A DNA stretch of 35,796 nucleotides from a virus. Each line of letters starts with the position of its first letter. Position 1 is the first letter of the stretch. Below, piece after piece: positions 1,795-35,689 of the stretch. The DNA lies in IMG/VR virus record IMGVR_UViG_3300044701_000724, positions 1 to 35,796 of that record; one strand, 5' to 3'. Position numbers and translations under genes: made by a program. Below the pieces are notes generated by a model. That model was not told where the DNA came from and did no database searches. It saw only the letters and a program-made list of their open reading frames with translations.

Positions 1795-1958
1795 AAATAG
1801 ACAATTTTGTTACAACCGTAATAATTTCTGAAATATCTGATTATTCAAAGGTCTATTATTTAGATTGAATTTAAATTAATTAATTACTAATAATTTATTT
1901 GCATTGAATACAAACCTTTGTACATTTGCTTAATGTTTAATTCAAAACCCCTAAAAAC
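1795..1958. promoter_or_regulatory. Divergent intergenic region between late and early blocks
   Basis: This AT-rich spacer separates terS (minus) from the early plus unit. It contains promoter P1 for the plus strand and one AATATCTGA repeat (1832-1840). For the minus strand I see only a weak candidate: GAccTTTG at 1853-1846, one mismatch from TAnnTTTG, with no clear TTTG upstream. Late transcription may therefore need an activator. Confidence 0.5.
1898..1928 (+). promoter_or_regulatory. Promoter P1, Bacteroidota consensus
   Basis: TTTG at 1898-1901, a 19-bp spacer and TACATTTG at 1921-1928 match the Bacteroidota primary-sigma consensus TTTG-N19-TAnnTTTG exactly. It would start transcription near 1935, about 24 bases before the first small ORF. 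The surrounding sequence (1886-1932) is repeated with about 41 of 47 identical bases at 4011-4057. Confidence 0.8.
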
Positions 1959-2036
1959 ATGGACCTAGTAATCATTTTAACAGGCACGGCCCTAATTTAC
2001 GGCCTAACTTATTTAATAACCCTTAAAACCAGCTAA
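1959..2036 (+). CDS. 25-aa membrane peptide
   Basis: This short ORF (MDLVIILTGTALIYGL...) is one hydrophobic segment ending in LKTS. It is the first ATG after promoter P1 and ends 3 bases before the next small ORF. Nothing but position and a clean transmembrane-like composition supports it, so it may be a leader peptide or a chance ORF. Confidence 0.35.
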   Translation: MDLVIILTGTALIYGLTYLITLKTS

Positions 2037-2039
2037 CAA

Positions 2040-2147
2040 ATGAAAAAAGCTACTCGAGTACTCGGAAAAATTATTTACCTGGTAATTGGATTAAGCCCGA
2101 TCTTTTTTTTGGGATACTTACTAGGGATTAAATTAATGGAAAACTAA
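2040..2147 (+). CDS. 35-aa single-pass membrane protein
   Basis: The product has a basic N-terminus (MKKATRVLGK) and one hydrophobic stretch (about residues 11-30). It starts 3 nt after the preceding ORF and ends 14 nt before the next gene, so it fits tightly in the P1 unit. Predicted topology is N-in with a short external tail. Function unknown; small early membrane proteins often affect host takeover or superinfection. Confidence 0.45.
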   Translation: MKKATRVLGKIIYLVIGLSPIFFLGYLLGIKLMEN

Positions 2148-2161
2148 AAACTAGAAACAAC

Positions 2162-2596
2162 ATGAAAACGATCGAAATTACCCTTTACAGTTTTAACGAA
2201 TTAAGCGAAAAAGCAAAAGAAAAAGCGTTAACTATTTACCAAACAGAAACAGAATACTTTTGGGGCAATGAAGCCCTTGAAAGTATGAAGGCCTTTTTTG
2301 ATGAATTAGGACTTTTGATTATCAATTACCAAATAGATTGGTATTGCCCAAATAATTCTTGGGTAAGGTATGAAGGAAAACCAAGCGGGAAATTTATTAA
2401 GCAAGAATTGACGGGTACATGTTTTGACTATTCCTTGACAATTACTTGGAATAAGACCAAAGACATTAAAGAATGCTTAAGGGCTTTTTTTGAAGACTGT
2501 CAAACTGATTTTGAATACCTACTTGGTGAAGAGTATTTTGCGGAACATTGCGAAGCAAATCAAATTTATTTTGACGAAGAAGGAAACCAATTTTAA
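2162..2596 (+). CDS. Early protein with ELSEKAKEKA N-terminus
   Basis: This 144-aa acidic protein begins MKTIEITLYSFNELSEKAKEKAL. The ELSE-KAKEKAL start followed by aromatic, acidic repeats is shared by a widespread phage family that databases sometimes label 'antitoxin of toxin-antitoxin stability system' without experimental support (from memory). Residues 40-144 are rich in F, W, Y, D and E and could mimic nucleic acid, but that is speculation. It is the first sizeable gene behind P1 and probably acts early on the host. Confidence 0.8.
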   Translation: MKTIEITLYSFNELSEKAKEKALTIYQTETEYFWGNEALESMKAFFDELGLLIINYQIDWYCPNNSWVRYEGKPSGKFIKQELTGTCFDYSLTITWNKTKDIKECLRAFFEDCQTDFEYLLGEEYFAEHCEANQIYFDEEGNQF

Positions 2597-2616
2597 CCAA
2601 TAAACACAAACACAAC

Positions 2617-3132
2617 ATGAAAACAGTATTTTCTAGTAATTCGGAATTAGCAAACGTTTGGGCAATGCAAACGCAAAGCCACGGCAAAGCGAACAGTATG
2701 TTTTTCAATCATAACACGGCCTATTCATACGGGTTTCACTACATGGCGGGTGAACTTTTAACCTTAAAAGGTGAAAAGGTTTGCATCCTAAATAAAACAC
2801 CGTATTCAGTCACAACAAATAAACACGTTAACGAATTAAGAGCGGCCGCCTTGGGTAAGGGCTACAAATGTTTTTCTTTACCTTTTGGCCGTGTATTCGA
2901 TCAAAACAAAATTTGCGTCTATTTATCGGAACTAATAAAAGAAGCTGACGGACTTTTGAAAAAACAACTTAAGGCCCGTACATCAACTTTTAATTTTGAT
3001 CGTGCCGAATACTTAATTTATCAAATAATAGACCTTTGTAGGCTATTTGATGAAGAGCAACCAAAACCAGGAGACTTTAAACATTACACGGAACTAAAAA
3101 ACAAAATTTATGCAATTCAAGAGAATAAATAA
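2617..3132 (+). CDS. Hypothetical early protein
   Basis: The 171-aa protein opens MKTVFSSNSELANVWAMQ and contains a conserved-looking YSYGFHYMAGEL segment (about residues 37-48) that I recall from small phage and plasmid proteins of unknown function (DUF8033-like, not verified). The C-terminal half is helical and charged. It is preceded by the A/C-rich leader ACACAAACACAAC, the kind of leader Bacteroidota use instead of a Shine-Dalgarno site. Its end overlaps the next gene by 23 nt. Confidence 0.8.
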   Translation: MKTVFSSNSELANVWAMQTQSHGKANSMFFNHNTAYSYGFHYMAGELLTLKGEKVCILNKTPYSVTTNKHVNELRAAALGKGYKCFSLPFGRVFDQNKICVYLSELIKEADGLLKKQLKARTSTFNFDRAEYLIYQIIDLCRLFDEEQPKPGDFKHYTELKNKIYAIQENK

Positions 3133-7898: not shown

Positions 7899-10106
7899 AT
7901 GAACGTCACTTTAGGAAGAGCAATTAATTTATTGAACGCTGGCTTCAGCGTAATGCCCATATCAGAAGGCAAAAAACCGCTGATTTTATGGAAGGAATAC
8001 CAGACTAAAAAGATAGAAAAAGCCGAGCTAGAACGGCTAGAGTCTAAAACCAAAGGTTATGGTATTATTACAGGATTTTATGGTACTGAATGTATAGACA
8101 TAGACCTAAAAGTATTCCCAAGTGTACAAGAGGGTAAGAAATTTTGGAATGAGTTTATCGCATTCGTTTCAGATTACATAGATGACTTCGCTAGAAAGTT
8201 TGTGATCTACAAGACTATCAACTCAGGATATCACATTATCTACAGATGCTCTAAGGTAGAAGGCAACAGAAAGCTTGCTACGCTCAAGGGACATTCTCAG
8301 GCTCTGATTGAGACTAGAGGTTCAGGTGGATACATCTACATCTACGATAATCAGGTCAGCGAATTGTCTTATGAGCAGATTCAGGAGATTACACCTGAAG
8401 AGCGTGATCTGCTGATGAATCTATGTAAGTATTTCCACTATGAAGAGAGGGTAGATGAAACGAGGCCAAAAGAGGCCGATTACAGCGGTCTAACACCTTG
8501 GGATGACTATAACCATAGGAACAAGGCATTGGACCTCTTACAAGGCGAATTTAGTGCCATTAAGCACCTGTCTGACCGCATAGTTCTACGCAAGGTAGAA
8601 AGCAAGGATGCTCTACACGGATTTATCTACAAGGACACAGGTCTGTGCTACCTGTTTACTACTGCAACCATCTACCCGCATGAGACACCGCTTAGTCCTT
8701 TTGCTATCTACGCATGGAAGTTCTTTAGTGGAAATTACTCTGAAGCTGCTAGAGAGTTATACAAGGAAGGATATGGAGAACGCAAGATTAAGAAGGTAGA
8801 GATTGAGCGTATCGAGATTCCAAAGGAAGAGCTGATATTTCCGCTAGAAGTGTTCCCTGAGACATTACAGAATTATATTCTGTTGAATCAGAAAACCTTG
8901 AATCATTCTATTGACTATATGGGTTGCTCCTTACTTTGGTACATTTCTATATGTATTGGTAACAGCTGCAAGGTTCAGGTCAAGACAGGATGGAGAGAGT
9001 CGGTAAACATTTGGCTAGGATTGATTGGCAAGGCAGGTCTAGGTAAGACCCCTAGTATAAATGCAGTCATATTCCCATTGGCTAAAAAGAATAGTTTTGA
9101 GATTAAGCATTATCAGAACGAATACAAGAAGTACAAGGAATATGAGAAGCTTTCTACTAAGGATAAGAAAGATGTGGAGGAAGTCAAAGAGCCTGTTAGG
9201 AAGCAGATTATTGTCAATGATGTGACTGTGGAGGCATTGGCGGATTTACATGAGGAGAATGCTGTAGGCATTGCAGTATTTAAGGATGAGCTTAATGGAT
9301 GGATTAAGGACATGAACAAGTACAAGCCTGGCTCTGACCTAGAGTTTTGGTTGTCCTGTTGGTCGAATCAGGAGGCTATCATGACTCGAAAGACTGCAAA
9401 GAGTAGCTTTATCCAATCCCCATTGATTCCTGTTCTTGGAGGCATACAGCCTGGGATATTCTCGCAGATTTCTACCTTGGAGAATAAGGACAATGGATTC
9501 CTAGACAGATTGCTTGTCTGCTATCCTGATAAGGACATCGAGCATTACAACAGAAATGCCATAGATCAGGAAGTATTGGATTGGTACGAGGCTTATATGT
9601 CTCAGTTCTATAACCTCATAAGAAAAGAAGTCTTGCAGTTTAATAAGTTTGGTGAGATAGAGCCTAGAGTGATACGATTTGATACGGAAGCAGAACAGGA
9701 ATGGGAGCGGATATTTAACAACATCACAGATATGCAGAACTCAGATGATATTTCTGAGTATGTGAAATCCATGTTGAGTAAGCAGAAGGCTTACATCCCA
9801 AGGTTCGCTCTGATAATTAATTCGATTACTGCTTACAATAATTCTAGCGGTTTTGATTGGGTAAGTAAGGATAGTCTCCTGAAGGCAGAGAAGTTGAGTA
9901 ACTACTTCATTGCCATGTCTAAAAAGATTAAGGTGAACTCATTGGAAAGCTCCGAGCTAAATGAGTTGGTTCGCTCATTAAAGAATGAATCGATTGAAAG
10001 AAAGATACAGCAGATTCAGGAAGCCATCCCTGATTTTAACCGCTCTGAGTTAGCAGAGTTACTGAATGTTAGTAGAACCACTATTTATAAACACTTAAAG
10101 AAATGA
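7899..10106 (+). CDS. Prim-pol / DUF3987-type primase-helicase
   Basis: This 735-aa replication protein has three parts. Residues 1-160 are a bifunctional primase/polymerase (AEP) domain: GYGIITG (53-59), the catalytic IDID pair (D67, D69), SGYHIIYR (109-116) and ETRGSGGYI (138-146). Residues about 320-640 match the DUF3987 helicase-like domain with Walker A GKAGLGKT (377-384) and Walker B-like VFKDE (460-464). The last 25 residues (RSELAELLNVSRTTIYKHLKK) form an HTH that could bind the adjacent repeats. It probably primes and opens the origin just upstream. Confidence 0.9.
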   Translation: MNVTLGRAINLLNAGFSVMPISEGKKPLILWKEYQTKKIEKAELERLESKTKGYGIITGFYGTECIDIDLKVFPSVQEGKKFWNEFIAFVSDYIDDFARKFVIYKTINSGYHIIYRCSKVEGNRKLATLKGHSQALIETRGSGGYIYIYDNQVSELSYEQIQEITPEERDLLMNLCKYFHYEERVDETRPKEADYSGLTPWDDYNHRNKALDLLQGEFSAIKHLSDRIVLRKVESKDALHGFIYKDTGLCYLFTTATIYPHETPLSPFAIYAWKFFSGNYSEAARELYKEGYGERKIKKVEIERIEIPKEELIFPLEVFPETLQNYILLNQKTLNHSIDYMGCSLLWYISICIGNSCKVQVKTGWRESVNIWLGLIGKAGLGKTPSINAVIFPLAKKNSFEIKHYQNEYKKYKEYEKLSTKDKKDVEEVKEPVRKQIIVNDVTVEALADLHEENAVGIAVFKDELNGWIKDMNKYKPGSDLEFWLSCWSNQEAIMTRKTAKSSFIQSPLIPVLGGIQPGIFSQISTLENKDNGFLDRLLVCYPDKDIEHYNRNAIDQEVLDWYEAYMSQFYNLIRKEVLQFNKFGEIEPRVIRFDTEAEQEWERIFNNITDMQNSDDISEYVKSMLSKQKAYIPRFALIINSITAYNNSSGFDWVSKDSLLKAEKLSNYFIAMSKKIKVNSLESSELNELVRSLKNESIERKIQQIQEAIPDFNRSELAELLNVSRTTIYKHLKK

Positions 10107-10324
10107 TTGAAGCACTAGACGAAGTATCAGAAATCCCATTTGATGTATTTTGGGATAAGTACATGGAAACAAGACCAGGAGAGTACGATAAGACCTACAC
10201 CCAAGGGATTTGGCTCAAGATGAGAGAAGCAAACAGAGTACTTGCATTTGAATATATGTCCAGATTTGGCACAGACTACAAGACTCCTGTTTTGCATTTA
10301 GAGGCTTTTGATTTGCCGTTTTAA
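10103..10324 (+). CDS. Small replication-associated protein with SSB-like C-terminal tip
   Basis: The 73-aa protein (MIEALDEVSEIPFDVFWDKYM...) overlaps the primase-helicase by 4 nt. Its helical middle, FDVFWDKYMETRPGEYDK...GIWLKM, resembles small proteins often encoded after phage primases. It ends LEAFDLPF, like the acidic-hydrophobic tip of single-strand binding proteins that docks on replication partners. A role as helicase loader or accessory factor is inference. Confidence 0.72.
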   Translation: MIEALDEVSEIPFDVFWDKYMETRPGEYDKTYTQGIWLKMREANRVLAFEYMSRFGTDYKTPVLHLEAFDLPF

Positions 10325-10325
10325 G

Positions 10326-11495
10326 ATGAGACACGGATCACTATTTAGCGGTATAGGAGGCTTTGATTTAGCATCCGAATGGATGGGGTGGGAGAATGTA
10401 TTTCATTGTGAATGGAATCCATTTGGACAGAAAGTACTTAATTATTATTGGCCTAATTCTATAACTTACAATGACATCACAAAGACAGATTTCACTATTC
10501 ACAGAGGAGGAATTGACATCATTACAGGTGGATTCCCATGTCAACCCTACTCATCCGCAGGAAAGCGACTCGGCAAGGAGGATGAGAGACACCTCTGGCC
10601 AGAGATGCTTAGAGCAATACGAGAGATTCAACCGACCTGGGTTGTGGGCGAAAACGTTCGTGGGCTTACTAATTGGAATGGAGGGTTGGTATTCGACGAG
10701 GTGCAGGCTGAGTTGGAAGCTCAAGGCTACGAAGTCACACCGTTTCTACTTCCAGCTTGTGCCGTTAACGCACCCCACAGAAGGGACAGAATTTGGTTTA
10801 TTGCCTACTCCCCTGGCGCAAGCAAGAGAGCAAACGAACTTCGAGGCTTACGATCAGAGAATGGAGAGATTGATAGAGAAGGGTCACAAACCATTCACGA
10901 TGCCATTGGATCAAATGGCATTGAGGGGACTACTTCCAACTCCGACAGCAGTTCAAAGGAATCATCCAGAAAGAGTGGAAGCATTAATAGCAACTGGGGC
11001 AACAACAATGCAGAGCAGAAACAATGGCGAGAATCGACCGAACAGCATATTGGATGCAATAATGTTTCAAGCAATGCTTCCGACTCCCAATGCTTACGAT
11101 TGGAACACTCCGAGAAAACCAGAAACATTTCTGAAAGCAAAAGAAAGACACGCTCAGAAAGGAGTGAATCTTCAGAATCCTTTAAAGCAAATGGCATCAA
11201 TGAATATGCTTCCGACTCCGATGGCATCGGATTGCGGAGAAAAAGTGACAGGATTGGAAACTCAAGATTCTCTAACAAAAAGAGCAAGACAGATAACTGG
11301 ACAAACTTCCCAACTGTCCCCCCAATTTGTGATGGAGATGATGGGCTTTCCGACAGATTGGACTCTATTACCTTTTCTAAATGGAGACAAGAGTCAATTA
11401 AAGCAGGAGGAAACGCAATAGTTCCGCAAGTAGTTTATCAGATATTTAAAGCAATCGAGCAATATAATCAACTTGATAAGCAACTATCAATATGA
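10326..11495 (+). CDS. C5-cytosine DNA methyltransferase
   Basis: I start at ATG 10326 (389 aa), because the upstream extension uses TTG. Motif I GSLFSGIGGFDLA (4-16, SAM binding), motif IV GGFPCQPYS with catalytic C72, motif VI GENVRGL (108-114), motif VIII APHRRDRIWFIA (149-160) and motif X GGNAIVPQVVYQIF near the C-terminus are all present. The target-recognition part (about 162-340) is unusually rich in S, N, E and K, with repeated SDS. That same DNA encodes a well-composed protein in another frame. It probably protects phage DNA from host restriction. Confidence 0.93.
   Translation: MRHGSLFSGIGGFDLASEWMGWENVFHCEWNPFGQKVLNYYWPNSITYNDITKTDFTIHRGGIDIITGGFPCQPYSSAGKRLGKEDERHLWPEMLRAIREIQPTWVVGENVRGLTNWNGGLVFDEVQAELEAQGYEVTPFLLPACAVNAPHRRDRIWFIAYSPGASKRANELRGLRSENGEIDREGSQTIHDAIGSNGIEGTTSNSDSSSKESSRKSGSINSNWGNNNAEQKQWRESTEQHIGCNNVSSNASDSQCLRLEHSEKTRNISESKRKTRSERSESSESFKANGINEYASDSDGIGLRRKSDRIGNSRFSNKKSKTDNWTNFPTVPPICDGDDGLSDRLDSITFSKWRQESIKAGGNAIVPQVVYQIFKAIEQYNQLDKQLSI
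10471..11421 (+). CDS. Overlapping 316-aa ORF inside the methyltransferase gene (LPTP-repeat protein)
   Basis: In the +1 frame relative to the methyltransferase, this ATG-started ORF lies wholly within it. It has an N-terminal region with GQRCLEQYERFNRPGLWAKT (43-62) and WYSTRCRLSWKLKATKSHRF (73-92), four LPTP motifs at 111, 155, 203 and 247 (spacings 44, 48, 44), and a C-terminal QFVMEMMGFPTDWT (285-298). I recall proteins with WKLK...LPTPTAxD...MMGFPxxWT beside or across phage C5 methyltransferases, so the frame appears conserved beyond this genome (memory, unverified). No SSU-binding site was identified. It may act with the methyltransferase. Confidence 0.65.
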   Translation: MTSQRQISLFTEEELTSLQVDSHVNPTHPQESDSARRMRDTSGQRCLEQYERFNRPGLWAKTFVGLLIGMEGWYSTRCRLSWKLKATKSHRFYFQLVPLTHPTEGTEFGLLPTPLAQAREQTNFEAYDQRMERLIEKGHKPFTMPLDQMALRGLLPTPTAVQRNHPERVEALIATGATTMQSRNNGENRPNSILDAIMFQAMLPTPNAYDWNTPRKPETFLKAKERHAQKGVNLQNPLKQMASMNMLPTPMASDCGEKVTGLETQDSLTKRARQITGQTSQLSPQFVMEMMGFPTDWTLLPFLNGDKSQLKQEETQ

Positions 11496-11965
11496 AACCA
11501 CTTGACATTCTTAAACAACTCAAGCAGGAGTCGATGCTAGAATCTTATCCTAATGTGCCTAAGTATGCTATTTCAGCACCAAAGTACGAGGATAAGACAG
11601 CCAATGGACTAACCAAGTGCATTATCGACTACCTACAGCTCTCAGATCACCAGGCCGAGCGAATCAACACCATGGGTAGGCCAATCGACAACCGCAAGCA
11701 GGTAACAGATGTGCTAGGCAGAACCAAGACCATTGGCTCAATGACATGGGGAAAGTCCACAGCAACAAAAGGCTCCTCAGACATATCGGCAACTATCCAA
11801 GGCAGGTCGGTGAAAATAGAGGTCAAGATAGGCAAGGACAGGCAGAGTCAAGATCAGAAAGTCTATCAGGAGAACATAGAAAAGTCAGGAGGTCAGTACT
11901 GGATAGTTAAAAACTTCGATGACTTCATGAAAAAATATGACCAATTCCTAGAATCTTTAAAATGA
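11492..11965 (+). CDS. VRR-NUC-like PD-(D/E)XK nuclease
   Basis: The 157-aa protein ends in a compact nuclease core: GSSDISATIQGRSVKIEVK (about 95-113) provides the D and ExK catalytic residues, followed by SQDQKVYQENIEKSGGQYWI (118-137), the Q-x-x-Y helix and GG of VRR-NUC/Holliday-junction-resolvase-like enzymes. Residues 1-90 add a partner domain. It overlaps the methyltransferase by 4 nt. Likely role: processing branched DNA during replication or recombination. Confidence 0.82.
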   Translation: MKPLDILKQLKQESMLESYPNVPKYAISAPKYEDKTANGLTKCIIDYLQLSDHQAERINTMGRPIDNRKQVTDVLGRTKTIGSMTWGKSTATKGSSDISATIQGRSVKIEVKIGKDRQSQDQKVYQENIEKSGGQYWIVKNFDDFMKKYDQFLESLK

Positions 11966-29588: not shown

Positions 29589-30749
29589 TTAGGAAGCCAA
29601 AGTTACCTTAATGAAGGCGTTGTCATAGAACACAGGAAGAGCAACTCTCTCTTCAACACGAACTAGGATTACGTTCTTCTCAGCATCGTCAGAGTTCTGA
29701 TCGAAGAATCTGATACGAGGTGCCTGACGAGTCAACAATTGAGCTTGGTTCCAATCACCAACGATACCAGTTCCTTGAGAAAGGTAAGAGTTAGAGAATA
29801 CAGGGATACCTACTACGTTCAACTGTCCAGTCAAAGGATTAACAGTTACAACACCAGGGAAGTCATACTCACCAGAACCAGCAGCTTTACCCAACAAGAT
29901 GTTTACATAATCTTGGTTGCTCAACACGATTCCAGTTGGAGTGTGAAGGTTGTTCTTCAACTGACGCAAAGCAGCATCAATCAAGATTTCGATGCTGATA
30001 GTCTTAGAACCATTGTAGTTCTCAGAGTTAGCAGCGTCAAGAAGCAAACCTTGGATAAAGGTATCTTCCTTCTTCAACAATTCAGCACGACCTTTGTTCT
30101 GCAAGAATGAAGTCATCCAAGCCAAATCCTCAATCATAGAGATTGGAACTCCCTTGATAAGACCTGCAATCCACTCGGCATCAGCCTGGTAAGTAGTCAT
30201 CTTAGGCTCGATTTCAGGCTTAGCACCATCACCATAAGCCCAAGTGTTAGCACCACCTACAGTAGCGTTCTCCTTTGGATACTTAACAAATTCACCTGCC
30301 ATAGTTCCACCAGGAAGGATGTTTCTGTAGTGGAAAGACTCATACTTCACCAAGATTGGATCACGGAAGTCAGTTACGAAAGGCTCATATCCTGTGAAGT
30401 CAGAATAGTTGAAATCTTTCATAGTCATTTCCATGCCCTTACCAGACTTTACGTTCTTAACCATATCAGCGTGGTTAGCCTTCAAAGTCTCATGCAAAGA
30501 CCATCCGAAGTTCTTACGCTCAACCTTCTGAGCAGCTTTTTCGTTAGCCTGAGCCAAAGCCAAATCCATTTCTTTCTGGATGTCAGCATGTTTTGCCTGC
30601 ATATCAGCAGTCAATTTGTCCATTGCGTCTTTAACTTTTGCGTCAAATCCTGCAACGTCTTTTTCTCTTTCAGTAGAGAAGTTCTTCTTAAGAGTAGTTA
30701 ACTCTTCTGCTAGGAAGTCCTGAACTTCCTTAATTTGCAATTCTGCCAT
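29589..30749 (-). CDS. HK97-fold major capsid protein
   Basis: The 386-aa protein has an N-terminal coiled-coil delta domain (about 1-85, K/E/A-rich) that acts as scaffold and is normally removed by the prohead protease. The mature shell part starts around residue 100-120. PFVTDFRDPILVKYESFHYR, PISMIEDLAWM, LLKKEDTFIQGLL and the late GIVGDWNQAQLLTRQAPRIR match HK97-type capsids. It overlaps the protease gene by 20 nt and is followed by a strong terminator. Confidence 0.95.
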   Translation of the reverse strand: MAELQIKEVQDFLAEELTTLKKNFSTEREKDVAGFDAKVKDAMDKLTADMQAKHADIQKEMDLALAQANEKAAQKVERKNFGWSLHETLKANHADMVKNVKSGKGMEMTMKDFNYSDFTGYEPFVTDFRDPILVKYESFHYRNILPGGTMAGEFVKYPKENATVGGANTWAYGDGAKPEIEPKMTTYQADAEWIAGLIKGVPISMIEDLAWMTSFLQNKGRAELLKKEDTFIQGLLLDAANSENYNGSKTISIEILIDAALRQLKNNLHTPTGIVLSNQDYVNILLGKAAGSGEYDFPGVVTVNPLTGQLNVVGIPVFSNSYLSQGTGIVGDWNQAQLLTRQAPRIRFFDQNSDDAEKNVILVRVEERVALPVFYDNAFIKVTLAS

Positions 30750-31788
30750 GATTTCTAAATGTAGATTTAAGTGATTCGATAATTAATTGTGCTTCTATTT
30801 CGGCTTCATCCTCCTCTGAAGTAGCAGGTGCTGGCTTCATAGTCTCATAAAGTGATTTAAGTCTTTCTTCTAGTTTTGCCAAAGTCTCATCAGTAGCATC
30901 TGAAGTTCTTACAAACTTCTCAAGTTTCTCTAGGTACTCGAATGCGTCAGACTCTGACTTTAGGTCGATATATGTAGTCTCAGGATTAGCTCCTAGAAAT
31001 TGTACTGCTGATCCTTCAAACATAATTACTTCTTTAATAACATTTGCCTTTCTGCTCTGGTCAAAGTACTGCTTGTCCTTTGGCACAGAGAATCCAAAGC
31101 TATGTTGGTTAATAAGCCCTGATTCTACCATCTTCATGAAGTCAACTCCAAGAGCATGAGTGCCAATCTTAGCCTCATATCTCAAGCCCTTCATATCCTC
31201 GTCTAGGTTAGTAATAAGAGCTACAGATTTCTTAGAATCATGGTCTAGCAAGTACTTAATAAGTTTCTTGCCTTGAGGTCCACGCTCCATGATAGTCTTA
31301 GTGAATGCACCTCTTTCGATGACATCACCATCTAGGTCTTTATTTCCGAACATTGCAAAGTAACCTGAAACAATACCTTGCTTCATGTCTGCATCTTGAA
31401 AGCCTTGATTTAATCCTTTAGTAAGCATATTTGCGTTCTGTTCTTTTATTTCTCCTAATTCTCTTAGTTTACTTCTACTCCATGATAGAGCAGCTTTTCC
31501 TCCCCAGGCATCGTACATCAAAAGACCGCATCCATCCTCGTAAGAAGTTGAAGCATCTAAATCAACTTCATGTCTACTTAGATAGCTGTACATCCTTTTT
31601 ATTGTATCTACGCTAAGGGCTTCTCCTTTAGCTAGTTGGTTGGCTCTCTGCTTTCCTACATCAGTTCCGCATGGTCCCCAGCCATTCTCTTCAACAAACT
31701 TCAGAACTCTTTTTGCATTGTTTCTAACTGCTTCAGGATAGTCTGAATAGCTGTCAGCGTTTTTTATGCTAATTAATTCCATACACAA
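30730..31788 (-). CDS. Prohead protease (U35-like) with N-terminal accessory domain
   Basis: The 352-aa protein is fused from two parts. Residues about 18-110 carry DYPEAVRNNAKRVLKFVEEN, GWGPCGTDVGKQRANQLAKG and GLLMYDAWGGKAALSW, an accessory domain I recall from many Bacteroidota phage head proteins. Residues about 130-275 are the HK97 protease: SGYFAMFGNKDLDGDVIERG, catalytic H183 (LLDHD) and S230 (NQHSFGFS). It cleaves the capsid delta domain. Start may be the second ATG (MELISIKN). Confidence 0.9.
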   Translation of the reverse strand: MCMELISIKNADSYSDYPEAVRNNAKRVLKFVEENGWGPCGTDVGKQRANQLAKGEALSVDTIKRMYSYLSRHEVDLDASTSYEDGCGLLMYDAWGGKAALSWSRSKLRELGEIKEQNANMLTKGLNQGFQDADMKQGIVSGYFAMFGNKDLDGDVIERGAFTKTIMERGPQGKKLIKYLLDHDSKKSVALITNLDEDMKGLRYEAKIGTHALGVDFMKMVESGLINQHSFGFSVPKDKQYFDQSRKANVIKEVIMFEGSAVQFLGANPETTYIDLKSESDAFEYLEKLEKFVRTSDATDETLAKLEERLKSLYETMKPAPATSEEDEAEIEAQLIIESLKSTFRNHGRIAN

Positions 31789-31818: not shown

Positions 31819-33009
31819 TCATAGAAGATGACTAATTGCCTTCCTTGTATCCTCTCCATGCTCAAACCTATAGTAGTGAAACAAGTATATACCTTTAGCG
31901 ATACCAATCCTTAATCTGTGTTGCATAACTTTCTTGCAGAAGTGGTAGTCAAAGAAATGCCCTTGTATCTGAATACCTCCCTCAGGGAATCCACCAACTT
32001 GCCTCCACATACTCTTAGGAAACAACATAAACAATCCACCAATCACCTGCTGTATCGGCATAATCTCGATTCCATGCTTGTTATATAGCTCCACAGCAAT
32101 CTTTCTGTGATTTAATATATTAGAATCGTTGCTCTTCCTTCCTCCTACTAGCTGATAGTGCAATCCCAATCGGTTAGTCATACAACCCACTAGATCAAAC
32201 TCTCCTGCTCTAGCTATGTCCTCACATTGCTGATAAATCTTCTCGTGATACATCGGTAGCGTGTCAATGTCCCTAAGACAAATCCAATCGTTCTCAGGTA
32301 GCGTTTCGATTATATCGTTTATAGCCTTTCCAATGTTCTTGTCTGATCTCCCAGGGGTGATGTGATGCACATTTACATTCTTCTTGTCCTCAAGCTGCTT
32401 CTTATGTGCCTTAACCTTAATGTATCGACTCTGCAATGACTGATGCTGAATGTTCTCCATCCGTGACTGCGTAACCCACATAGCAAACGGAACTGCTAAC
32501 TCATCAACAGCAGTATGCTCGTTAACAATATCCCACACCTTCTCCATCAACTTATTCTGCACATCGTTGCGATTCGAACGCACAAAGAAATTGTTGTGAT
32601 ACAATCCTCCCTTGTCGCTGAATCTTAACTCCATGTAGTACCTGATCTGCCTTTTAACCATGTCTAAATCAATAGACCTAGTCATGGCATACTGATAAAC
32701 ACTATTGTGCATTCTATGGGTAAACCATATCGGATTACTAGGAGGCTCTGCTATCAGCTTAACATTCCCATCAATGTAGCAGACCAAATCGTATTCACTT
32801 AGATACACATGAGATAAGAACTTATACTTCCTAGATTCCTTATGTAAATCTTTACCGCCTTCTACATAGCATATATTCCACCCATCAACATTCAACTTTA
32901 AATCATCGGTAAATACCACAAAGTCCCACCCCTCAAACTTAGGAGCAGGACTTATCTCATCATATCCTCCTAGAAGTACAGTATATACTACCTTCTTATT
33001 TCTCTCCAT
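31819..33009 (-). CDS. Two-domain glycosyltransferase (TOD1/DUF616-like plus GT-A)
   Basis: The 396-aa protein joins two transferase-like domains. Residues 1-190 match DUF616/TOD1-MUCI70: VVYTVLLGGYDEI (7-19), WDFVVFTDD (28-36), ESRKYKFLSHVYL (58-70) and YIDGN (78-82). Residues about 212-385 are a GT-A fold: NIGKAINDIIE, WICLRDID with the DxD at 247-249 and GGLFMLFPKSMWRQVGGF. It probably transfers sugars. It overlaps its upstream gene by 22 nt and belongs to a three-gene cassette between portal and protease. Confidence 0.82.
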   Translation of the reverse strand: MERNKKVVYTVLLGGYDEISPAPKFEGWDFVVFTDDLKLNVDGWNICYVEGGKDLHKESRKYKFLSHVYLSEYDLVCYIDGNVKLIAEPPSNPIWFTHRMHNSVYQYAMTRSIDLDMVKRQIRYYMELRFSDKGGLYHNNFFVRSNRNDVQNKLMEKVWDIVNEHTAVDELAVPFAMWVTQSRMENIQHQSLQSRYIKVKAHKKQLEDKKNVNVHHITPGRSDKNIGKAINDIIETLPENDWICLRDIDTLPMYHEKIYQQCEDIARAGEFDLVGCMTNRLGLHYQLVGGRKSNDSNILNHRKIAVELYNKHGIEIMPIQQVIGGLFMLFPKSMWRQVGGFPEGGIQIQGHFFDYHFCKKVMQHRLRIGIAKGIYLFHYYRFEHGEDTRKAISHLL

Positions 33010-34141: not shown

Positions 34142-34326
34142 GGCATCATAGATAGCAGCTTTATAGTCTGCTCTATTATTTCCTTCTTACCGATTCCTTC
34201 TTCAAACTCAAACGTATAGTCCTGAGCCTTGCACCAACAGCTGTATTCGTCTGTCAACCTTTGAGCCTTAACTGTTATCTTCCCATTTAGAGGATCAAAG
34301 TTCTTGGTCAATATCTTCGTCTTCAT
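34138..34326 (-). CDS. Hypothetical 62-aa protein
   Basis: MKTKILTKNFDPLNGKITVK is followed by a WCKAQDYTFEFEEG segment and a C-terminal helix. It overlaps portal by 32 nt and the methyltransferase by 4 nt, so it is likely translated. No family recognised. Confidence 0.68.
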   Translation of the reverse strand: MKTKILTKNFDPLNGKITVKAQRLTDEYSCWCKAQDYTFEFEEGIGKKEIIEQTIKLLSMMP

Positions 34327-35689
34327 CTTCCGTGTCTATTCTGTCTATGTTTTCTGTTTCTAAATCAGTTCCTCGCATATCACTCAACGGCATATAGTTC
34401 GTAGGTACCAACACCTGAGTCTCATCTACCAATGTTCCATATCCTAGAGCTTCTCTAATCTCATCCTGACTGAATACCATTGCCTGACGCATCCAATGTA
34501 CCAACTCCTTCTTATCACCTTCCAATTCAGGATAAACGTCAGTGTCTGACATCACAACCAAGGTGTTGTCATTATACCATTCTCTAGCCATCTTAGTCCA
34601 CACATCATCCATCTTTCTCAACAATGGCAATACGCAGTTAGTCACAACTCTAGTGTCACCTGTCTCACTATTTGCCAATGTTCCCTGCGGAGTCAACAAC
34701 TGAGACGGGTATCCGTAGATATTAGCAATCTGTCTCTCCAAGTCCTGATTAAAGTCCAAGATACCCATGTCCACAGGACTCAAGCCTATCTGCACCCACT
34801 TCAGGTCACTAGGAGTCACAACAATGTCTCCTGCGTTATGCGCACCCATGTGGTTCTGTCTGAACGAATCGTTAATCGCTACAGCCTGCTCGGCAGTCAA
34901 CTCTGACTGATCTGCGTGTCTAGCGTTACCACTAACAATACCGCTAGGACCCATGTTAGCAAACAACGACCCTTGAGCTACATCTGCAAATCTCTTTTGA
35001 GAAATTACATTCAAGCTACTTCTTAGTGGACTCAACCCCCAGAACGTACTCTCGTATCCTTGCCACTCAGAAACAGGGTTAAAGTACTTAAAATGTGCTA
35101 TCTGCTCTCTAGGGATGATATTCTCAAAGTTATATGTAATCGCATACCCTGCCAACGGCTGTGTTCTTTCTCCTGACATTACAGGCTTCACAGTCGGACT
35201 CGGCACACTCCACAACTCTACAGGCTGCTTAGCTCGTAATCCAACCCCAGGCACGCTCGCATACACAATCGCATTCCCTGTAATCAACAGATACCCTGCA
35301 ACCTCTTCTCTCAGCTGTCTGCCTGTGCTAGTCGGGTTCGGCTTATCCATCAGCTCCAAGAACGGATGCTGCTCAATAGATTCAAACGCCTTAACTCTAA
35401 GCTTAGCCAACTCCGTAGCATTCTCCTTGTTCTTCAAGTACTTCTTCTTAGCAAAGTACTTCTCTGCAAATCGCTTGTCCTTGACCTTATACAACATCAC
35501 AGGAGCATCAGCAGACTTCTCTACAATCTTAGAAACCACAGACTGTACTACAGGGATACTCTTATACGCCTTATCTATAAATATGCTGTCTTTTGCATCG
35601 TAAGGCATCCAAACCCCCTTTATATACTGCCATTGCAACGCCTGTGGTAAGCCTAGCTCCTTAGTTCTAAATGCCTTGAGAAGATTCAT
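34295..35689 (-). CDS. HK97-family portal protein
   Basis: The 464-aa protein forms the dodecameric DNA gate. KSIPVVQSVVSKIVEKSADA (43-62) is the usual first core helix, then PFLELMDKPNPTSTGRQLRE, GYLLITGNAIVYA, and EQIAHFKYFNPVSEWQGYES with GLSPLRSSLNVIS, all typical of HK97 gp3-like portals. The acidic tail DEDEDEDIDQEL is notable. It starts at the contig end; its first 20 bases are repeated at 1-20. Upstream by 32 nt in the circle is terL. Confidence 0.95.
   Translation of the reverse strand: MNLLKAFRTKELGLPQALQWQYIKGVWMPYDAKDSIFIDKAYKSIPVVQSVVSKIVEKSADAPVMLYKVKDKRFAEKYFAKKKYLKNKENATELAKLRVKAFESIEQHPFLELMDKPNPTSTGRQLREEVAGYLLITGNAIVYASVPGVGLRAKQPVELWSVPSPTVKPVMSGERTQPLAGYAITYNFENIIPREQIAHFKYFNPVSEWQGYESTFWGLSPLRSSLNVISQKRFADVAQGSLFANMGPSGIVSGNARHADQSELTAEQAVAINDSFRQNHMGAHNAGDIVVTPSDLKWVQIGLSPVDMGILDFNQDLERQIANIYGYPSQLLTPQGTLANSETGDTRVVTNCVLPLLRKMDDVWTKMAREWYNDNTLVVMSDTDVYPELEGDKKELVHWMRQAMVFSQDEIREALGYGTLVDETQVLVPTNYMPLSDMRGTDLETENIDRIDTEDEDEDIDQEL

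Follow-up and report, generated by a model that had tools for sequence, protein, structure and literature searches.

A gene nested in the +1 frame of phage C5 cytosine methyltransferase genes that probably encodes a second subunit of the enzyme

Results

The methyltransferase locus and its nested ORF

The window, that is, the whole stretch of DNA analysed here, is a virus record of 35.8 kb (35,796 nucleotides). It carries a C5 cytosine methyltransferase gene within which a second, gene-like ORF of 316 codons runs from an ATG to a stop codon in the +1 frame (Table 1). The main-frame product is termed alpha and the nested product beta. The ATG at 10326 is preferred to the TTG at 10308 as the start of alpha, which meets the features of the PF00145 C5 methyltransferase family, with motifs I, IV, VI and VIII present. 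The first-pass annotation had described the nested ORF as containing four regularly spaced LPTP motifs and ending in MMGFPTDWT, and the sequence bears this out. The LPTP motifs lie at residues 111, 155, 203 and 247, with the claimed spacing of 44, 48 and 44, and MMGFPTDWT occupies residues 290–298, followed by 18 further residues. Also as described, the LPTP codons become SDS-type motifs when read in the alpha frame, where the stretch is of low complexity; the SDS motifs of alpha are thus a shadow of beta, arising because the LPTP codons are read one frame over.

Table 1. Features of the alpha and beta reading frames in the window
Feature	Position	Strand	Evidence or remark
Alpha: C5 cytosine methyltransferase ORF, 389 aa, motifs I–VIII and X	10326..11495	+	PF00145 E=6.1e-46, TIGR00675 1.4e-40; HhaI/HaeIII matches
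Alpha catalytic domain, motifs I–VIII (SLFSGIGG, GFPCQP, ENV, HRRDRIW)	10326..10808	+	hhalign 99.9% to ordinary C5 methyltransferases, residues 5–161
Alpha low-complexity linker, residues 180–336, frame shadow of beta modules	10863..11333	+	AF2 pLDDT <50; no alpha-frame constraint
Alpha C-terminal helix with motif X (GGNAIVPQ at 11406–11429)	11376..11489	+	hhalign places residues 359–380 on motif X, weak score; AF2 helix 351–388
Beta: nested ORF, 316 aa, ATG to stop	10471..11421	+	+1 frame of alpha; phrog_1008 E=3.8e-23
Beta start codon ATG	10471..10473	+	+1-frame ATG within alpha nt 127–190 in 105/108 homologues
Beta N-terminal conserved block, residues 43–99 (C46, W59, LLIG, W73, WKLK, R91, L96)	10597..10767	+	Invariant alignment columns; dNN/dNS 0.37–0.56
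Beta module 1 (LPTP, 44 aa, type C)	10801..10932	+	
Beta module 2 (LPTP, 48 aa, type H)	10933..11076	+	88% identical to module 1 of related locus L030, at another rank
Beta module 3 (LPTP, 44 aa; type G in one typing, F in another)	11077..11208	+	
Beta module 4 (LPTP, 35 aa, type B)	11209..11313	+	99% DNA-identical to last module of related locus L015, other modules of other types
Beta motif IX-like segment LSPQFVMEMMGFPTDW, residues 282–297	11314..11361	+	Conservation in beta is highest here; motif IX is the best hhalign match in ordinary methyltransferases, weak score

The gene directly after alpha (11492–11965, plus strand) overlaps the alpha stop by 4 nt (ATGA) and weakly matches families of phage endonucleases and Holliday resolvases (phrog_824, 93 and 5702). 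Two genes upstream of the methyltransferase, 7899–10106 (plus strand) encodes a Prim-Pol plus DUF3987 helicase-like protein with a C-terminal HTH. On the minus strand, a glycosyltransferase-like ORF (31819–33009; phrog_26101, E=3.1e-57) is located between the head protease (30730–31788) and portal (34295–35689) genes, and its product might modify sugars of the virion or the host.

The nested frame is open beyond chance expectation

In 5000 synonymous-codon shuffles of the window alpha, the open run in the +1 frame averaged 98 codons and never exceeded 254; the real run spans 318. Among 115 distinct related methyltransferase ORFs, the median open run was 285 codons in +1, 38 in +2 and about 99 in shuffles; the +1 run exceeded all 200 shuffles in 107 of the 115. 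When loci were retrieved through alpha and not through beta, 45 of 46 (window included) were open for at least 200 codons in +1, the single exception being a 16-codon fragment. A control set of 30 C5 methyltransferase loci was taken by family profile from 198 genomes. Twenty-nine were ordinary: none matched beta, the open runs in that frame reached only 33–123 codons, and many of these ordinary enzymes contained motif IX (LQGFP, by simple pattern) in the main frame. The remaining control locus was itself of the nested type, having 316 open codons and no main-frame motif IX by the same pattern. Stops interrupt the beta frame in a few relatives (L026 and L064), which could represent sequencing errors, decayed genes or natural variants without beta.

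Selection alternates between the two frames

Substitutions in 44 non-overlapping sequence pairs were sorted by their effect on each frame, with bootstrap over columns (ranges in parentheses). In the DNA under motifs IV–VIII, dNN/dSN was 0.13 for alpha and dNN/dNS was 0.56 (0.37–0.89) for beta. The corresponding values in the recognition region were 1.78 (1.57–2.05) for alpha and 0.42 (0.36–0.50) for beta. In the MMGFP region, beta gave 0.25 (0.06–0.76), and for alpha the two contrasts gave 0.81 and 0.11. The figure of 1.78 for alpha in the recognition region should not be taken as positive selection, because the contrast uses alpha-silent sites, which are second positions of beta codons. An independent enterobacterial replicate yielded 0.20 for beta and 0.95 for alpha in the recognition region, and the same switch between frames was seen in plain codon periodicity.

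Stretches coding for alpha alone served as controls. Upstream of the overlap, the +1 frame gave 0.99 (0.57–1.99) and contained stops in 68 of 68 sequences; around motif X it gave 1.01, with stops in 84 of 85. Within the overlap it gave 0.37 (0.23–0.60), with a stop in 1 of 68. Motifs I–VIII and X are conserved in the alpha frame, and the region between them is neutral in that frame and under purifying selection in the nested one. From the per-frame rates, selection reads this DNA first mainly as alpha, then as beta and then as alpha again.

Judged on these sequence data, the nested ORF is a real, selected gene, although its expression has not been shown. The first-pass annotation suggested that the dual-coding pair is conserved and little described and that selection in the recognition region acts largely on the nested frame; the open frames in homologues and the per-frame substitution rates support this. 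The proposal would have been undermined by regular stops in the nested frame of homologous methyltransferases or by dN/dS near 1 in that frame; neither was seen.

Alpha lacks a folded recognition domain and motif IX

In the AF2 prediction of alpha (on 73 alphas), residues 1–175 are folded, with pLDDT mostly above 90. The 157 residues from 180 to 336 lack secondary structure, with pLDDT below 50, and residues 351–388 form a confident C-terminal helix carrying motif X. Foldseek matched the model to only about 165–178 residues of M.HhaI and M.HaeIII, roughly half of each target; as modelled, the match covers only their large domain. In profile comparison, the best match of alpha to ordinary enzymes stops after motif VIII, and a weak second match falls on motif X. 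The presence of motif X in alpha rests on the conserved GGNAIVPQ, the hhalign placement and the predicted helix. A target-recognition domain (TRD) and motif IX were not found in the alpha chain, which has no motif IX in its own frame and is disordered over residues 180–336. Motif IX is confined to one frame: many ordinary methyltransferases carry it in the main frame and have no nested frame, and the nested ones are without it in the main frame.

The N-terminal conserved block of beta overlaps alpha motifs IV–VIII, and the other end of the protein resembles the motif that alpha lacks. The best hhalign match of beta to ordinary methyltransferases is motif IX, aligning LSPQFVMEMMGFPTDW with LTPREMFRLQGFPDWY. 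The score is weak (P about 0.03), and the match is best regarded as a tentative placement and not as proof. In 106 of 107 loci, 19.7 codons separate the proline of beta MGFP from alpha motif X, a spacing that is 17–19 residues in one-frame enzymes; in enterobacterial loci the IX–X spacing is only 9.7 codons, not 17–19.

No family match to beta was obtained in Pfam, NCBIfam or PADLOC, and a PDB sequence search with beta or its profile returned nothing meaningful. Beta does match phrog_1008, which is labelled only 'DNA methyltransferase'. AF2 prediction of beta alone was poor (pLDDT 58.5, pTM 0.27), and because of this low confidence the BFVD matches of the model, which include annotated relatives, were not used otherwise. 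The poor prediction of the isolated chain might fit a subunit that folds on its partner, which is an inference; no fold has been shown.

Beta contains a shuffled array of modules

The middle of beta consists of one to five LPTP-headed modules arranged as an array, with preferred lengths of 30, 33, 39, 44 and 48 residues. At 60% identity, the 310 modules of 106 proteins comprise 66 types; they form 80 architectures, and modules inside one protein are only about 26% identical to each other. In 1314 of 5565 protein pairs, one module is shared at 80% identity or above while another module of the first protein has no counterpart above 40%. The shared module stands at a different rank in 193 of the 1314. 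From the comparison of the window with L015, which gave 99% DNA identity for the last module, the values for the N-terminal half were left out, since they fall out of register where the first module differs. Such sharing amid unlike neighbours looks like recombinational exchange of beta modules between phages. By analogy with the TRDs of about 40 residues in multispecific enzymes of B. subtilis phages, the LPTP modules are probably interchangeable target-recognition units, an inferred role for which TRD function has not been shown.

VADA/ADADN-type repeats, which are common in annotated C5 methyltransferases (L293, L343, L250 and similar alphas), appear to be the shadow of the WPTPT/LPTPT heads of beta modules, and may quickly flag a hidden beta.

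The pair is widespread and mostly half-annotated

Searches by tblastn found 70 phage records with the window beta and 215 with the beta of an E. coli prophage. IMG/VR contained 397 relatives, of which the best 80 were kept, and species genomes contained 107, mostly from Bacteroidota. Among sampled genomes, those with beta numbered 10 of 321 for one class of Proteobacteria and 4 of 249 for a Bacillota set. Beta occupied the +1 frame of an overlapping alpha in all 245 loci, and likewise in the enterobacterial and named-phage loci; no standalone or alpha-fused beta occurred among the 245 or the further enterobacterial and phage loci.

Named carriers include an E. coli P2-like prophage of strain TOK-001 (L293), N15 gene 58 (L342), epsilon15 (L343), BcepC6B (L345) and Rhodobacter phage RcPeripeteia (L346). 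Paenibacillus phage Leyra has annotations for both frames, 'DNA-cytosine methyltransferase' twice, as do Kagunavirus K1ind2 and fKuEco01, with 'C-specific methylase' plus 'Mte8-like protein'. Elsewhere usually just alpha is annotated and beta is mostly missed. The phrog_1008 family, the 'Mte8-like protein' and the second 'DNA-cytosine methyltransferase' of Paenibacillus phages are the same nested family, which these annotations merely name. No description, function or mechanism of the family was found in the literature, open-licence papers only being covered.

In a human-gut phage contig (L008, 749–2926), the alpha match is split into two distant pieces, methyltransferase residues 1–72 at 794–1009 and residues 36–384 at 1919–3022, which suggests that DNA upstream of beta has been inserted or partly duplicated. 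On a Bacteroides finegoldii plasmid (L295, 2001–3008), just fragments of alpha and beta are annotated, as if the annotation or the gene were broken; Hachiman HamA lies nearby.

Alpha and beta as parts of one enzyme

The nesting, its conservation, the per-frame selection, the absence of a TRD and motif IX from alpha and the modular shuffling of beta are all shown by the analysis. The reading considered probable is that the two frames of the same DNA encode a two-subunit C5 methyltransferase, with beta providing target recognition and motif IX. Alpha would bind SAM and catalyse the transfer through motifs I–VIII and X, a disordered linker standing in place of the small DNA-recognition domain. 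Beta, built of its N-terminal block, module array and motif IX-like end, would bind alpha and supply the missing parts. Exchange of modules may then change or broaden the methylated sites and allow escape from host restriction. Complex formation, the recognition role, multi-specificity and anti-restriction use are inferred, in the absence of expression, activity or methylation data. The earlier suggestion that the nested protein affects methylation specificity accordingly has only indirect backing, from an alpha without folded TRD or motif IX and a beta with a motif IX-like end, and as for counter-defence, its other suggestion, a protein apart from the enzyme that serves this purpose is a less probable reading than a subunit.

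Beta could still be a phage protein with a function of its own, such as an inhibitor of restriction or defence or a regulator of host methylation, its overlap with alpha being incidental. Nothing so far shows that it binds alpha, and the lack of a Pfam, NCBIfam or PADLOC match leaves room for such a role. This is nonetheless unlikely: beta was never found without the methyltransferase in the loci examined, alpha is without exactly those parts that beta resembles, and the motif IX-like end sits at the right place.

Beta probably starts at its own ATG

The first +1-frame ATG is mostly at the same site across homologues, in 60 at exactly the site of the window alone, and the +1 frame typically opens just a few codons ahead of it. 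No Shine-Dalgarno sequence precedes the beta ATG of the window, as would be expected if, as is inferred, this is a Bacteroidota phage. In enterobacterial loci, a Shine-Dalgarno sequence of at least 4 nt precedes the first +1-frame ATG in 72%, versus 16% for other internal ATGs; these loci are related and do not represent 54 independent cases. Examples are gaaaggag...ATG in epsilon15 and BcepC6B, and gggaggaaaatttgATG in N15. The conserved ATG site, the position at which the frame opens and the Shine-Dalgarno sites therefore favour independent initiation of beta inside alpha over frameshifting, expression data being absent.

Alpha motif VIII and the LPTP-to-motif IX part of beta are nearly collinear on the DNA, so beta might be made only as an alpha–beta fusion, by a programmed +1 frameshift after motif VIII that would place the TRD and motif IX in a single enzyme chain. 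Such a route is improbable. It leaves unexplained why 105 of 108 homologues keep the beta ATG at one place, with the frame typically opening just before it and Shine-Dalgarno sites preceding it, and why purifying selection acts on the N-terminal block of beta, which lies upstream of where the shift would occur. A second shift would also be required to reach motif X.

Discussion

An open frame arising merely from the codon usage or low-complexity composition of the methyltransferase is hardly credible as an account of beta. Synonymous shuffles do produce runs of about 99 codons, but the observed frame far exceeds them and is kept in widely separated phages, and the purifying selection in the beta frame is absent from the alpha-only flanks, controls which refute the absence of a gene. 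An out-of-frame ORF within a phage methylase has been published, the ShiLan element of mycobacteriophages (PMC11855218), but that is a discrete homing insert with a nuclease (HNH) domain, and an equivalent origin of beta can be dismissed almost outright, since beta is unrelated, extends from motif IV to motif IX without forming a discrete insertion, matches no nuclease family, HNH or other, and has no uninterrupted allele among the sequences seen.

The preferred reading, a two-subunit methyltransferase, has precedents. M.EcoHK31I, which recognizes YGGCCR, resembles the alpha/beta pair in that its small-subunit gene is nested inside the large-subunit gene in another frame, as beta is in alpha. 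Multispecific C5 methyltransferases of the B. subtilis phages SPR, phi3T and rho11 carry several TRD modules of about 40 residues between motifs VIII and IX; like them, the present phage enzymes have several short, in this case shuffled, modules, which here reside in a nested second protein and not within the methyltransferase chain. M.EcoHK31I is a natural two-polypeptide enzyme whose large subunit contains motifs I–VIII and X and whose small subunit alone contains motif IX (PMC3404938). Alpha has the same complement without motif IX, and the best match of beta, weakly scored, is motif IX at the right place. The systems differ in that a predicted TRD was reported in the M.EcoHK31I large subunit (PMC3404938), whereas alpha has a disordered, unconstrained linker and beta a modular array, and in that M.EcoHK31I is part of a restriction-modification system whereas alpha/beta is an orphan phage enzyme. 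By analogy alone, the pair would work like M.EcoHK31I, with the TRD located differently. A DNA search of E. coli genomes for M.EcoHK31I starting from one nested locus found nothing, and a search from another found prophage methyltransferases that also carry beta. M.AquI (CYCGRG) is likewise a C5 enzyme that naturally consists of two subunits; the split falls in the variable region, and the small subunit holds the distal TRD, IX and X (PMC3404938), whereas motif X here stays in alpha. The M.EcoHK31I precedent, the module shuffling and the breadth of distribution are all additions to the first-pass annotation; the breadth in phages, the selection map by frame and the shuffled module array are new.

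The data also bear on a broader proposition, on which judgement is evenly balanced. A large, mostly unannotated class of 'orphan' C5 methyltransferases of phages and prophages would be a two-protein enzyme in which beta is a traded array of recognition modules. Recombination would take place in the DNA repeats that encode LPTP, and with each module a methylated site would be added or changed; the main frame would be only a tolerated spacer there. If this is true, hundreds of one-protein annotations are half-annotated, among them those of N15, epsilon15, BcepC6B, Kagunavirus, and Paenibacillus and Bacteroidota phages, and the hidden subunit would be lost from versions that are codon-optimised or re-cloned, so that activity and specificity assays on them would fail or mislead. 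The locus also provides an unusually clear and testable case of a long, ancient same-strand overlap with selection alternating between frames, and it may represent a modular route by which phages change methylation specificity and evade restriction.
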